Of a stretch of DNA of 23,994 bases, positions 13,420-23,994 are shown piece by piece (the first letter of the stretch is position 1; every line of letters starts with the position of its first letter). The notes below the pieces were generated by a model, which worked only from the letters and a program-made list of their open reading frames with translations, did no database searches and had not been told where the DNA came from. Both the position numbers and the translations under genes were made by a program. The stretch spans positions 1 through 23,994 of the IMG/VR virus record IMGVR_UViG_3300021957_000301. One strand, given 5' to 3'. Origin of the DNA: a virus.

Positions 13420-14514
13420 TTAGATTAGGATGTTTGAGATTGAAATGTAAGACTGCTTAGTCATTGCCTGCCCATCAAACCCTAAACTGTATTGGGGTTC
13501 GTTAAGGTCGACAATTCTAACATCATTAAATGAGCTTAATGCTGATACAATTGCTTGTCTTACTTGTTGATGTCTTGATGTGGGGGCTTTGCTTGTGATA
13601 GGAAATAGCATAAATGTTACAACATGACTCCGTCTCACAGACTCGTTAACAATGGATTTTACACGTTCTCCAATTGCCTGTGGAGTATCTGTGGAAGTGA
13701 CAGTATCATTGTATCCAGCTGATATCACTACAACTTCGCCTGATTTGATCTTTTTAATATTTTGTTTAATTGTTTCATCACGAGATGTTCGTCCATCAGA
13801 TGCATAAGACTGCCATGGATCTCCACCGTAAACTCTGAGTAACCTTGCATGAATGTCTCCAACGGTAAAGTATCCAGCAACTTGATCAGGTAGTATTGCT
13901 GGAAACTTAACTGAAGTATCTGGGATCTCAGTTATCTCAACCAATTGACTAACTGCCTGTACAGTATTGTTGAATCTTGTTTCAGCTATTCTATCAAACT
14001 TTACATTATAGTTGGTTGGAATTTCAGGTACCTGTATTATAATTTGAGCGTTTAGCTCACCTTCAACATAGGTATCATAATCAAGAATGATTTTGTCAAA
14101 TGTTGGATGAAACACTTGAAGATACTTTGCTAATTCAAATGTCTTATCGTTGTCTGTTTTACCATTTCTTCTTAGTTCATAAACAATCCCTCTACCGGTT
14201 GTAGCAAGAAAGTTGTGATTATCTTCACTCTCTGTGATCTGTTCTTCAGGCGCTGGTTTGTATATACCCTCCACAACAACAAGCTGATGTAAAGAAAATC
14301 TTTTATCGTTATCCCTAATAGCTCTTACTATCTCTGCATGTGGAATTAAGTTTCTAGCAAGTTGTTTGCGTTCTTCTATAGTAGGTATGTGGTCTAATGT
14401 AACTCCATTAAGAAAAGATCCAATTGTTACTCCATCGCACAATGCTGTAGAAGCATCAATTGTTTCCAATCGTTCTGGAGCAAATCTTAAATCTGGTAAA
14501 TAATTTCTTGGCAT
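13420..14514 (-). CDS. Hub-region protein with degenerate SGNH-hydrolase-like C-terminus, 364 aa
   Basis: The last third (about residues 212-364) follows the SGNH order. A block-I-like YFTVGDIHARLL has GDI at 219-221 where GDS is expected. A block-III-like VVVISAGYND has GYND at 267-270, keeping the Gly and Asn. A final DGQAMTKQSYISIS (347-360) stands where catalytic DGxHPT is expected. So the nucleophile Ser appears as Ile and the His as Ala, suggesting loss of esterase activity. The first 200 residues include LARNLIPHAEIVRAIRDN, LVVVEGIYKPAPEE and GRGIVYELRR. These form a separate domain, which I recognise only loosely from marine T4-like phages. Its start overlaps the stop of the beta-helix gene (TAATG), placing it with the hub and tip proteins. 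It may be a carbohydrate-binding or purely structural tip component. Confidence 0.6.
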   Translation of the reverse strand: MPRNYLPDLRFAPERLETIDASTALCDGVTIGSFLNGVTLDHIPTIEERKQLARNLIPHAEIVRAIRDNDKRFSLHQLVVVEGIYKPAPEEQITESEDNHNFLATTGRGIVYELRRNGKTDNDKTFELAKYLQVFHPTFDKIILDYDTYVEGELNAQIIIQVPEIPTNYNVKFDRIAETRFNNTVQAVSQLVEITEIPDTSVKFPAILPDQVAGYFTVGDIHARLLRVYGGDPWQSYASDGRTSRDETIKQNIKKIKSGEVVVISAGYNDTVTSTDTPQAIGERVKSIVNESVRRSHVVTFMLFPITSKAPTSRHQQVRQAIVSALSSFNDVRIVDLNEPQYSLGFDGQAMTKQSYISISNILI

Positions 14515-15929
14515 TATACAGCCTTTATTCTTTTAGATGTTAGAGTCTGTGAAGGACTACCAATAGGTGTCTGCCCCTGCACAACAATTGAAGTTGTATC
14601 CACAATAGTTGATACGTTAGGTGGGCTAGTCTTAGCATATTCTGGAGATAGTTTACCTTGAGATTGCATCAGCGCAATAAACTCTGGATTGTTTCTGTGA
14701 GCTGGATCTCTCATTTTTGATCGTACTTGTCCAGCAGTTAGTTGTTTATCAGTTACACCAGCCGTTTTAGATGATAGATCAATATTGTTTTTTATTACAT
14801 TATCGGGGTCTACAGTCACTTTCTTAACACCTTTAGAGCCCTTTGTCCTATAATCTGTTAGTAATGTAGAAGTAGGTAAAGCCGTTGCAGTTGTGTCTCT
14901 TGCAGTATCATCTACAGGATAGTCGGGATTAGTTCCTACACTCGGTGTATATGTAGAAGGTGCAGCAGTCCCATCAGGATAGCTTTGATGGAGAGATGTC
15001 CCTGCTGTTGTCGCTGTTCTTGCATTGCCCTCTAAGTCTCCATACACAACATTTGTATCTACTGTCTCTGACCAAACTGTTTTCTTTGTATGCATGTTGT
15101 AGTTGTACATAATAATGTTTTCACCACCTATTGTACCCTGATCACCAAATACTGATATATTATCCGCAGCAATATTAGCTTCAGGAGATGTCATAACAAC
15201 CTCCTCTTCAGCAGTCATAGTAAGAGTGCCAGAGGATGCTACTAGGAAGTCTCCTTCAACTGCATATCTGGAGTCACCTTTTACAATTGTATTAAGACCT
15301 TCATGGAATGTTGCCATCCCACCTCCAGTTATAATATGAGATTGATTGCCTTTGACTGTTCTATTATCATCTCCATATATTGTGGCAATAGACGGTCCAT
15401 TGATAGTTTCAACTTTCTTTTGAGAGTTAACATTAAATGCACCTCCAACATCAATATTCAGATCACCAGTAACACTTAATGATAGGTTTCCTTGAAATGA
15501 TAATTTACCATCACCTGTTACAGAAAGATTATAATCTTCATTTACAACATCAACTCTTCTTTTAGAAGAAACTATAATAGATCCATCAGGACCAATGTTT
15601 ATTCCTGTTCCATCGGTATGACGAATCATGATTCTTTCAGATCCAGATGTGTCGTTATATTCAATTGAATGTCCACTAGGAGTTGTATATTCATATACCT
15701 GAGTGTACTCTGCTTCGTTCCCTTGAATTGTGTTATCAGGAATTTCGACCCCAAATGTGTTTAGAAGTTTACCACCTCGATTTGTTGTTGCTCTATTCTC
15801 TGCGCCTGGAGCTGGATGTACTCCAGTTTGATCTCCAACACCACTTTCTACTCGGCCGGCAGTTTGTACAGGACCACTTCCCTGTGTGGTAGTTCTATTA
15901 ACAAGACTCTCTACATTTCTAGTTGACAT
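14514..15929 (-). CDS. Beta-helix spike/tip protein resembling the gp5 C-terminus, 471 aa
   Basis: Residues about 86-275 consist of short alternating beta segments broken by Gly, Asp and Asn: HSIEYNDTSGSERIMIRHTD, INIGPDGSIIVSS, NLSVTGDGKLSF, LSLSVTGDLNIDV, and so on. This is the pattern of the intertwined triple-stranded beta-helix of T4 gp5 and VgrG spikes. The N-terminal 80 residues are low in structure (many Gly, Thr and Asn). After the helix comes YGDLEGNARTATTAG (296-310), then a tail with QVRSKMRD and linker-like sequence. No OB-fold or lysozyme domain is present here; both are in the gene at 17311-18429. TAATG overlaps with both neighbours indicate coupled translation. The likely role is the membrane-piercing needle or part of it. 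Confidence 0.68.
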   Translation of the reverse strand: MSTRNVESLVNRTTTQGSGPVQTAGRVESGVGDQTGVHPAPGAENRATTNRGGKLLNTFGVEIPDNTIQGNEAEYTQVYEYTTPSGHSIEYNDTSGSERIMIRHTDGTGINIGPDGSIIVSSKRRVDVVNEDYNLSVTGDGKLSFQGNLSLSVTGDLNIDVGGAFNVNSQKKVETINGPSIATIYGDDNRTVKGNQSHIITGGGMATFHEGLNTIVKGDSRYAVEGDFLVASSGTLTMTAEEEVVMTSPEANIAADNISVFGDQGTIGGENIIMYNYNMHTKKTVWSETVDTNVVYGDLEGNARTATTAGTSLHQSYPDGTAAPSTYTPSVGTNPDYPVDDTARDTTATALPTSTLLTDYRTKGSKGVKKVTVDPDNVIKNNIDLSSKTAGVTDKQLTAGQVRSKMRDPAHRNNPEFIALMQSQGKLSPEYAKTSPPNVSTIVDTTSIVVQGQTPIGSPSQTLTSKRIKAV

Positions 15930-17308
15930 TACACGTTTCCTTGCGCTGCTGATATAAGCTGCTGAGAAGAAAATGATCTCGAAGCACTACCATAATTTAC
16001 TTTTTTAAATGAAGCAATATAGTTTCCCATATTTACTCCAACTTTTACTTCTGAATCACCAGTATCTATCTCAGCATCAAACACCTGACCCCCTGGCCAT
16101 ACACTATAAAATGATTCAATCAACTGTTTAACACTCTTACCTTGCATCACAGTTGCAGGAGCTCCTACAACATGAGGAATCACAACACCTATTGAAAATT
16201 TACTATGAGTTGTTGAGAACGTACCTTCTCTTGATAGTGGCCTTCCTCGTTGAATATTGCCGTTGGGCAATACAACATAGTGAAAGGGAATACCATCATT
16301 ACCATCAGCAATATATGTTTGGTGAATCTCTTTTGAGGTAAGAACCTGATTTTCTGTCATCTGATGTCCAAAGAATACAATTTCTGTTATTTCTCTCGAG
16401 CTCTTCAACATCTCAATAGTTAGTTGTTCTTGAGTTGCTATAATATCAAAAAAGTCTTCAGTAGTCTGGGCGCCATTCCATTCGTTGTTTTTATCTGATA
16501 CATCATATACTCCTGTAGAAGAAGATCCTACATTTCTTTTATCAATCTGATCTTCCAAGCTAGTTGGCACACCGGCAAGTACTCTTTCAATCTCGTCAAT
16601 ACTTTTATCTGATACACTACCAACAAGCTCAGTCGCTTCATTTAACTTATTATTTTGTAAAAGAACGAGAGCTTCTCCAGCTATTTTTTCACTAACCCCA
16701 AGATTTTCAATAATGTTTAACGGGCGGGTATCATTCTGTAAGATAACATCTTGAAGAACATTACCAGTAACAGATCCTAAAATATCTGAGAACGATGTAT
16801 TGAAAGAAGATACAGCAGAGGACAGATCGCTTGAAAATTCACTAAAAGTTTTACTGACTAAATCAGAAACTTGCCCTGCATATTGCTCTGGTACAATATT
16901 TCCTAGAATAGCTGTTAGTTGCTTGTCAGTTGGAGATGCAACAAATTTAACGCCAGCTTTAACTCCTTCAGCAGTAGCACTTGTGAATACCAAATCGTTG
17001 AAAGAGTTATCTACCTGATTGCCTGTGATCAGATCAAGATCGCTTTTGCTTGCACTAACATCTTGAACAATTTGACTTTGTAGGCCGGTAAGATTTTCTG
17101 TTAACAACCCAATAGCTACAGCTGCATCAACTGTGGTATTTAATCCCTGTACACCACCAATTGTAGCATTTATATCATCACCAAGGCTTGAAGAGTTAAG
17201 CGCTTGAACTGATGAAGCCACTGTAGTTGCTTCTGTTGCAAGTTTGTCAAACCCAGATATGATACCAAGGCTTTTTAGTTTTGAATTAAGTGATAAAAGA
17301 GTTGCCAT
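15929..17308 (-). CDS. Hub-region protein with amidase/PGRP-like C-terminal domain, 459 aa
   Basis: Residues 1-250 are helical and Ser/Ala-rich with no domain I recognise. Residues about 305-430 resemble the N-acetylmuramoyl-L-alanine amidase type 2 (T7 lysozyme/PGRP) fold. The order is EIVFFGHQ, a helix LTSKEIHQTY, PFHYVVLPNGNIQRGRPL, GTFSTTHSKFSIGVV, then a helix and a final segment. Against T7 lysozyme, the catalytic Tyr in GYHF appears as Phe342, the His of GSHAKG as Phe364, and the last zinc-ligand region (DAEIDTGDSEVKVGVNM) has no His or Cys. It may therefore bind peptidoglycan without cutting it. It follows the gp5-like gene by 2 bp, with GGAGG lying just before and across that gene's stop, and overlaps the beta-helix gene start as TAATG. 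Confidence 0.6.
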   Translation of the reverse strand: MATLLSLNSKLKSLGIISGFDKLATEATTVASSVQALNSSSLGDDINATIGGVQGLNTTVDAAVAIGLLTENLTGLQSQIVQDVSASKSDLDLITGNQVDNSFNDLVFTSATAEGVKAGVKFVASPTDKQLTAILGNIVPEQYAGQVSDLVSKTFSEFSSDLSSAVSSFNTSFSDILGSVTGNVLQDVILQNDTRPLNIIENLGVSEKIAGEALVLLQNNKLNEATELVGSVSDKSIDEIERVLAGVPTSLEDQIDKRNVGSSSTGVYDVSDKNNEWNGAQTTEDFFDIIATQEQLTIEMLKSSREITEIVFFGHQMTENQVLTSKEIHQTYIADGNDGIPFHYVVLPNGNIQRGRPLSREGTFSTTHSKFSIGVVIPHVVGAPATVMQGKSVKQLIESFYSVWPGGQVFDAEIDTGDSEVKVGVNMGNYIASFKKVNYGSASRSFSSQQLISAAQGNV

Positions 17309-17310
17309 TA

Positions 17311-18429
17311 CTATCCTCCGTATGCATTATATACTGCTTTGGCATCGCCAAGTCTTTCTTCATATTCAAGTCTGTATGCTCTAATTACCGAGCCTTGTTG
17401 AGAGTTTCTACGAAGAAATGCAGCAATCCCCCCCGCTCTTTGATACGATCTCCAACTCTTAGCTTCTGGGTGAGCGCTTTTGAAGTTAACAGAAACCTCT
17501 GGATTTTCATACCAAGCAAATACTGTTTCCGTTGCTGATTCCATTGTCTGATCTTCTTGTAGCCATGTGAAGACATATCCATGTGTATCTTCTAGTTCGT
17601 CAATCACCCAATTCAATTGCATTGTAAAATTACCTACATACGCATTGTGATTAGCTGCATATTTTTCTAATGCAACTCTTCTAGGACCTGTCCACTGAGC
17701 AATACCAAACCCTCCTCGGCTTCCAGGAACCAAAGGATCTGTTTCCCCAATCGTGGGATCTAATCTTGCAAAGGATTCGTTCATAAAGTTTCCAACAAAC
17801 GCTGCAGCAATATATCCAGGGTTGTTATGTCCCCTTCGTTGAAAGTATTGTTTCAAAAAGTTAAACGCCTGCTCTTGTCTATTTTGACCTATTAGATCTG
17901 TTCCTAAATCTCCAGCCCCTGCAACAACACCATTGAGAATATCAGCTTGTTGTTGTGTAAGAGGAGCACCAACGGCTCCTTGAGATTCACCAGCGTTGGT
18001 CAATCTCTCGTTTATTGCTCCATTGATCTCATCACCTTCTCTAAACTGTGGAGCTGTTTGTGATGGTACAGGTATAACATAATTGTCTGAAGGGCCATCA
18101 TAACTAACCCTCATCTGAGGGTTGTGTGGAATAGAACCAAGTACTAAAGGAACTTGAGAGTGGCTGCCATCAATAAAGACACCAAACACTTTTGCGCCAA
18201 TTTGTATACCAGTAGGTGCTGTAGTTTGTGAAGTTCCTCCTTGAGTTACAGGAAGGACAACATTTGCCCACGGGAGATCAGTGTTTTTAATTTTAGATGT
18301 GTTACTTGTATGCAATCCAAATATTCTAACACGAACTCGGCCAAGCTTATCTGGATCCGCGATTGATTTTACTTCTCCAATAAACCATCTGGTATCATCA
18401 CCATAGTATTCAGTATTTATTGCTCTCAT
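17311..18429 (-). CDS. 5: Baseplate hub spike protein, gp5-like OB-fold plus lysozyme domain, 372 aa
   Basis: Residues about 10-100 form the gp5/VgrG OB-fold: RWFIGEVKSIADPDKLGRVR, VRIFGLH, LPWANVVLPVT, GAKVFGVFIDG, PLVLGSIPHN. After a linker, residues about 185-365 match the phage tail lysozyme type: YIAAAFVGNFMNES with a likely catalytic Glu at 218, GGFGIAQWTGPRR at 239-251, and QLNWVIDELE at 271-280. Unlike T4 gp5, there is no C-terminal beta-helix; that part is on the gene at 14514-15929. The probable role is local digestion of peptidoglycan as the tail tip crosses the periplasm. It starts in a 4-bp ATGA overlap with the gp27-like gene, its structural partner in T4, consistent with coupled, matched synthesis. 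Confidence 0.88.
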   Translation of the reverse strand: MRAINTEYYGDDTRWFIGEVKSIADPDKLGRVRVRIFGLHTSNTSKIKNTDLPWANVVLPVTQGGTSQTTAPTGIQIGAKVFGVFIDGSHSQVPLVLGSIPHNPQMRVSYDGPSDNYVIPVPSQTAPQFREGDEINGAINERLTNAGESQGAVGAPLTQQQADILNGVVAGAGDLGTDLIGQNRQEQAFNFLKQYFQRRGHNNPGYIAAAFVGNFMNESFARLDPTIGETDPLVPGSRGGFGIAQWTGPRRVALEKYAANHNAYVGNFTMQLNWVIDELEDTHGYVFTWLQEDQTMESATETVFAWYENPEVSVNFKSAHPEAKSWRSYQRAGGIAAFLRRNSQQGSVIRAYRLEYEERLGDAKAVYNAYGG

Positions 18430-23249: not shown

Positions 23250-23951
23250 ATGGCACTACCTAAGATTAATGGGACTCCCAAGTATGATATGACTATCCCT
23301 TCAACAAAAGAAACAGTAAGGTTCAGACCGTTTCTTGTGAAAGAAGAGAAAGTTCTAATGATGGCTATGGAGTCTAACGACAATAACCAGATGTTGAACT
23401 CTATTGTAGACACACTAGATGCATGCATAGAGGATGGGGTTAACAAATCAAAACTAACAACGTTTGATGTTGAATATATGTTCACTAAGCTGAGAGCAAA
23501 GTCAGTAGGTGAGACTTCAAAGGTTGGCGTTCAATGCACCAAATGTGAAGAAACAAACGAAGTATCAGTCAATGTAGAAGACATCAAAGTTGATGTACCA
23601 GAAGTTGATCATATGATCGATCTTGGTAATGATATTAAGATCGAAACCAGATGGCCATGTTATTCTGATATCATTAAGCTGAATCCAGAAGGTAATTCAA
23701 CTGATCAAGTATTTGCAATTCTAAGAGCAAGTCTGTCAGCAGTTCACACTAATGATGAGCGTATTGATTTAAAAGATGAGTCCGAAAAAGAAGTACAAGA
23801 TTTTATCGAGTCAATGAATAGAACTCAATTTGAAATGCTGCAAAAGTTTATTGAGGATATGCCTACACTATCTCATAGTGTAAAGTTCAAGTGCTCAAGT
23901 TGTAGTGAAGACAATACAGTATTGCTAGAGGGAATGCAAAGTTTTTTTTAG
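23250..23951 (+). CDS. 26: gp26-like baseplate hub/tail assembly protein, 233 aa zero-frame product
   Basis: The N-terminus (MALPKINGTPKYDMTIPSTK, then VRFRPFLVKEEKVLMMAMES) and LRAKSVGET (81-89) are strong signatures of the T4 gp26 baseplate family. Two CxxC pairs (Cys96/Cys99 and Cys215/Cys218) form a likely zinc site, with EFVESL-like DFIESMNRTQFEMLQKF between them. Upstream is AAGGATG at good spacing. The zero-frame protein ends MQSFF-stop at 23949-23951. The last two Phe codons lie in a run of eight T, phased as T TTT TTT just ahead of the stop, so some ribosomes probably slip into the -1 frame and make a longer protein. In T4, gp26 is a hub component and gp51 an assembly factor; by analogy with lambda gpG/gpGT, this pair may act as a tail-assembly chaperone. 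Confidence 0.88.
   Translation: MALPKINGTPKYDMTIPSTKETVRFRPFLVKEEKVLMMAMESNDNNQMLNSIVDTLDACIEDGVNKSKLTTFDVEYMFTKLRAKSVGETSKVGVQCTKCEETNEVSVNVEDIKVDVPEVDHMIDLGNDIKIETRWPCYSDIIKLNPEGNSTDQVFAILRASLSAVHTNDERIDLKDESEKEVQDFIESMNRTQFEMLQKFIEDMPTLSHSVKFKCSSCSEDNTVLLEGMQSFF
23942..23948 (+). promoter_or_regulatory. Predicted -1 ribosomal frameshift site T TTT TTT
   Basis: The zero frame reads AGT TTT TTT TAG, so the heptamer T TTT TTT fits the X XXY YYZ form exactly and is followed directly by the stop codon. In the -1 frame, reading continues TTA GTG TGT and stays open to the window edge. Slippery runs of this kind are used in tail-assembly chaperone genes of other phages, for example P2 E/E' and lambda G/T. 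Confidence 0.7.
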
Positions 23952-23994
23952 TGTGTCTATCTCACAATGATTTATACACTCATTATCACACTAA
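23948..23994 (+). CDS. Partial -1 frame extension of the gp26-like protein, possible gp51-like part
   Basis: After slippage the protein would continue LVCLSHNDLYTHYHT, 15 codons without a stop before the edge. This resembles what I recall from gp51-like or fused assembly proteins of marine T4-like phages, which run SHD.L..YY.TNF with a Leu/Met-rich helix after it. It has no start codon or ribosome-binding site of its own near the junction, which favours expression only by frameshift. The rest lies outside the window, so the length and identity are open. Confidence 0.55.
23948..23994. repeat. 8-bp inverted repeat just after the frameshift heptamer
   Basis: TTAGTGTG at 23948-23955 and CACACTAA at 23987-23994 are perfect complements. 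They enclose a smaller inverted repeat, AATGA/TCATT (23966-23970 and 23980-23984). In the RNA this could fold as a stem with an inner hairpin downstream of the slippery site. The outer stem lacks the 5-9 nt spacer normal for a frameshift stimulator, so the meaning is uncertain. Confidence 0.4.

Follow-up and report, generated by a model that had tools for sequence, protein, structure and literature searches.

The 3' end of a gp26-like gene in an uncultivated T4-like phage raises the question of whether this gene gives rise to one protein or to two. The gene ends in a run of Ts directly followed by its stop codon, and the -1 frame remains open beyond that stop. The stretch analyzed here (the window) is the entire virus record IMGVR_UViG_3300021957_000301, a fragment of a marine T4-like phage with a length of 23,994 nucleotides that ends at position 23994 within the -1 frame. 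Based on sequence comparison we consider it highly probable (about 0.92) that the gene yields a pair of short and long chaperones by -1 ribosomal frameshifting.

The putative shift site and its gene

The gp26-like gene (23250–23951, plus strand) encodes 233 amino acids in the zero frame, the putative short tail assembly chaperone (TAC-N). It matches PF12322 (T4_baseplate) over nearly its full length with an E-value of 1.5e-60. Its score of 205.1 bits, where the cut-off is 24.5, places it in the T4 gp26/gp51 family. Nearly the full length is also covered by the match to phrog_150 (baseplate hub, E = 1e-63). Genes for head closure, the DNA end protector and the tail tube are located 5' on the same strand, and the opposite strand carries a T4-like baseplate cluster.

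Two observations on the minus strand are recorded here in their own right. The gp5 hub/lysozyme seems to be split among separate genes between 14514 and 18429: an OB domain with the tail lysozyme (17311–18429), an amidase-like protein (15929–17308) and a gp5 trimer/needle protein (14514–15929). A gene at 13420–14514, in the midst of the baseplate cluster, encodes a 364-aa protein that matches no PHROG and hits a GDSL lipase below the threshold.

The gp26-like gene ends with GAG GGA ATG CAA AGT TTT TTT TAG, the last four codons occupying positions 23940–23951. Eight consecutive Ts are found at 23942–23949. The first seven (23942–23948) form the slippery heptamer T TTT TTT (U UUU UUU in the RNA) in the X XXY YYZ phase of a -1 shift, and the zero-frame stop TAG (23949–23951) follows immediately. 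Read from 23948, the -1 frame translates as LVCLSHNDLYTHYHT and is open up to the contig end at 23994. The window thereby holds the first 15 of about 60 codons of the extension, with which the C-terminal domain of the putative long form (TAC-NC) begins. A preliminary description of this DNA had pointed to the in-phase slippery run, the stop directly behind it and the open -1 frame, and all three are present as described.

Conservation of the heptamer and the -1 frame

A scan of viral contigs resulted in 80 loci, from which the 43 that were non-redundant at 97% and had enough flanking sequence were used for all counts. Without exception the gp26 genes of these relatives end with an in-phase T TTT TTN (TTTTTTT in 23, TTTTTTG in 9, TTTTTTA in 6 and TTTTTTC in 5). 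The gp26 stop codon follows directly in 35 of them and after one further codon in the other 8. Elsewhere in these same genes the heptamer occurs once in 10,052 codon positions. The two wobble positions fixed by the heptamer are T in 100% of the relatives (43/43), compared to 65–88% T in the other 24 NNY columns.

The -1 frame is likewise preserved, being open for 59–69 codons in all 43 relatives and for 60 codons in L002, the nearest relative with sufficient flank (87% protein identity, 63-kb contig). Conservation of the T run among homologues and continuation of the frame past the window edge, both proposed earlier as checks, were thus found in the relatives. The median dN/dS of the extension in the -1 frame is 0.27 (IQR 0.18–0.34), that of gp26 itself 0.35, which indicates purifying selection on the extension as a protein in this frame. 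The 43 relatives share ancestry, so the counts above are not independent, yet their divergence is large, synonymous differences in the extension averaging about 0.77 per site. A chance origin of the slippery site together with the open frame is excluded.

Relationship of the extension to T4 gp51

T4 gp51 matches PF12322 with its residues 1–201 (E = 3.9e-52). Since both T4 gp26 and T4 gp51 belong to this family they are paralogues, and gp51 consists of a gp26-like domain followed by a C-terminal extension. When the profile of the -1 extension was aligned to the C-terminus of gp51 using hhalign, we obtained a match with a probability of 96% and an E-value of 1.2e-9, the alignment starting just past the shift site. 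The same profile gave no match to the gp26 body. In addition, the C-terminus of T4 gp51 and the short ORFs of cyanophages fall into the same family, phrog_634.

The earlier impression that the -1 translation is the beginning of a real domain is therefore borne out by homology to the gp51 C-terminus as well as by dN/dS, and the comparison with gp51 profiles suggested at that time was positive. Because T4 gp51 itself is a gp26 paralogue plus extension, the predicted frameshift product equates with the entire gp51: the long form (gp26-like domain and extension) would be the counterpart of the whole protein, and the -1 frame alone that of its last 45–50 residues or so. The proposal of a 26-51 fusion holds insofar as the long form matches gp51; it does not hold in the sense of two unrelated genes that were joined. 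T4 and the window thus share the PF12322 family, and the predicted long form has the domain order of gp51 with a homologous extension. They differ in that T4 uses two genes, located on opposite strands and with no slippery site.

One gene or two

We determined the number of PF12322 copies in phage genomes. A single copy was found in 16 genomes (P-SSM2, C48C1, Melnitz-3, MED4-213, S-CRM01, AF3, AsFcp_2, heyday, OLIVR6, Bhz51, Vibrio 1.255, Dickeya RC-2014, KVP40, Aeh1, HTVC008M and S-PM2), and two copies in five (T4, RB49, Acinetobacter 133, 44RR and SonariX). In each of the 16 single-copy genomes gp26 is followed by the extension in the -1 frame, and 13 of them have the T6 heptamer, which is missing in the three Ackermannviridae. 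At the gp26 end of the two-copy genomes the slippery heptamer was found in none of the five, and the next gene follows there instead. A separate full gp51 gene, which had been named as evidence against frameshifting, was absent from the single-copy relatives, i.e. from the 16 phage genomes and from the relatives' contigs of 63–121 kb; the latter contain one PF12322 copy and no second gene with an in-frame extension.

The Ackermannviridae-type homologues show an arrangement of their own. Salmonella heyday (L099) and Vibrio D508, Vibrio 1.255 and Dickeya RC-2014 (L102–L104) kept the -1 extension with no T6 heptamer, and carry ATTTTC or CTTTTC/CTTTTT at its site. An ATG overlaps the stop codon in three of the four; in heyday there is none.

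Alternative explanations

The -1 ORF could instead be a separate small gene of 34–60 aa, translated by termination-reinitiation from a start overlapping or following the gp26 stop. This is how GenBank annotates it, as "gp51", in P-SSM2, C48C1, Melnitz-3, MED4-213, S-CRM01, AF3 and OLIVR6. A GTG does overlap the stop codon in the window (TAGTG) and could allow reinitiation, and several distant relatives have TAATG or TGATG at this position. However, in 27 of the 43 close relatives no ATG, GTG or TTG exists in the -1 frame ahead of the conserved SHD motif, and the sole ATG detected (in L037) is located 16 codons upstream. As its second codon the extension has ATA in 19 cases, GTA in 10, GTG in 9, ATT and CTA in 2 each and GTT in 1, a pattern that fits a hydrophobic residue and not a start codon. 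The annotated short "gp51" genes of cyanophages and their relatives are the -1 extension, and the starts chosen for some of them remove conserved residues. Reinitiation moreover leaves the invariant T run unexplained, and T4 gp51 carries the extension on the same polypeptide as a gp26-like domain. We consider a reinitiated gene improbable.

Slippage of the RNA polymerase on the T run, with the long form made from edited mRNA, appears less probable still. It would be favored by the run of eight Ts, which the window has in common with 23 of the 43 relatives. In the other 20, only six Ts are present, interrupted by G, A or C, and the codon phase of the ribosomal heptamer is kept. Runs of six nucleotides are short for transcriptional slippage, so these 20 relatives argue against it. 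A sequencing or assembly error, suggested by a homopolymer at a contig end, has next to no likelihood, and the same holds for a decayed gene whose T run arose by chance. The frame relation recurs in 43 contigs that are non-redundant and in complete genomes of isolates (among them KVP40, Aeh1, S-PM2, P-SSM2 and HTVC008M), which excludes an error in the T run, and the extension has a dN/dS of 0.27.

Possible stimulators of the proposed frameshift

Ribosomal frameshifting is commonly stimulated by structures in the RNA, and we searched the 43 sequences for a conserved stem or pseudoknot downstream of the heptamer. None was detected (mean z -0.59, RNAalifold energy 0), thus a usual frameshift stimulator is missing. 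Upstream, a Shine-Dalgarno-like AGAGGGA (23927–23933) is located 8 nt 5' of the heptamer. Its GG is present in 43/43 relatives, and the mean energy of the anti-SD duplex is -4.5 kcal/mol compared to -1.4 kcal/mol in a control region. The site overlaps with an invariant Gly codon, and an amino acid constraint explains its conservation equally well. We therefore regard AGAGGGA tentatively as a possible internal stimulator.

We lean slightly towards a further reading with two parts. In the first, T4-like phages would originally have had the frameshifted single gene, and T4 26 and 51 would have arisen by a duplication in which the shift site was lost from one copy while the fused frame became fixed in the other. 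In the second, the shift at U UUU UUN would need no RNA structure downstream, the upstream SD-like element being its only help, if any. Parts of this reading were probably already proposed by Vladimirov, Gautam and Davidson (2022).

Structural similarity and proposed mechanism

The AlphaFold model of the gp26-like protein has a pLDDT of 86. Its top three structural matches in VIA-align were 3fgx (Z 7.9), 2ob9 (Z 6.8), which is titled HK97 tail assembly chaperone, and yqbN (3klu, Z 6.4), followed by the next match at 2.5. All three cover residues 1–95 of gp26, and with Z-scores below 8 they are of moderate strength. We take 3fgx and yqbN to be tail assembly chaperone (TAC) proteins as well. Foldseek alone gave no significant E-value for the gp26 model, and no solved structure was matched when the sequences of gp26 and T4 gp51 were used as queries. 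With moderate confidence the model points to a TAC-N-like fold. For the extension alone three helices are predicted.

Gene order beyond the window was taken from the relatives, as the window ends before the next gene. In most loci with enough flank a large ORF, mostly of 420–770 aa and with hydrophobic segments, begins at most about 17 nt after the stop codon of the extension. Its position is that of a candidate tape measure gene; among the relatives it had no match to a tape-measure family. One such ORF, of 607 aa, lies directly 3' of the extension in L002 (3384–5207) and is without a family match. A search for its relatives led to 7 loci only, and it is perhaps fast evolving.

In T4 both proteins, gp26 and gp51, are classed as chaperones of hub assembly, gp51 being essential for assembly yet not part of the final particle (PMC3004832), and lambda uses a short and a long chaperone for its tape measure protein (PMC5009743). 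Together with the TAC-like fold and the position next to the putative tape measure gene, these precedents support the view that a short and a long chaperone serve the tape measure protein. Most ribosomes would terminate at the TAG at 23949 and release the short chaperone (TAC-N). On U UUU UUU a fraction would slip back by one base, so that the stop is avoided and translation continues for about 60 further codons, resulting in the long chaperone (TAC-NC), the presumed counterpart of the whole T4 gp51. Both forms probably coat and hold the tape measure protein during assembly of hub and tail tube, as lambda gpG and gpGT do.

Comparison with known systems

The gp26 family differs from lambda gpG/gpGT (Levin et al. 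1993; Xu et al. 2004) in being larger and in carrying CxxC pairs. The shift sites also differ, U UUU UUN in the window and its relatives in contrast to G GGA AAG in lambda. What both have in common is that the short gene ends with a slippery heptamer in phase, together with an open, conserved -1 frame.

The window is a further case of a chaperone strategy that has been known in T4-like phages since 2022. In the work of Vladimirov and colleagues the two genes are reportedly 26 and 51, and frameshifting is said to be kept in several T4-like groups. As far as this study (Vladimirov, Gautam and Davidson 2022, Virology 566:9-15) is cited in the PRFect (PMC10885494) and phage Adele (PMC12846349) papers, it describes T4-like phages with a short gene and, in some, a longer fused gene, and TAC-N genes with poly-T slippery sites and short and long forms. 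The window has such a poly-T site and probably the short and long forms, and differs in being a fragment of an uncultivated phage. The inference in the preliminary description that a T4-like gene pair uses the lambda/P2 chaperone strategy is essentially right, with support from the heptamer in 43/43 relatives and the homology to gp51, but judging from these citations it is not new.

According to the phage Adele paper (PMC12846349), the TAC locus of Vandenendeviridae and Andersonviridae also features a -1 shift and a 3' ORF misannotated as a separate gene; these are other phage families, and their invariant GTTTTT is a shorter T motif than that of the window. In the literature searched we found nothing specific on a gp26/gp51 frameshift in cyanophages. 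In Aeromonas phage AsFcp_2 a -1 extension of 57 codons (L098:2717–2884) is unannotated, leaving a gap between gp26 and the next gene.

The extension is thus missed by annotation pipelines and in some genomes omitted altogether. What has been annotated as a short "gp51" gene in marine T4-like phages, cyanophages among them, is most likely the tail end of a frameshifted chaperone and not a separate gene. Our analysis extends the 2022 description to further uncultivated phages and leaves its picture unchanged: one recoded gene and two paralogous genes appear as a clean exchange, two answers to the same stoichiometry problem.
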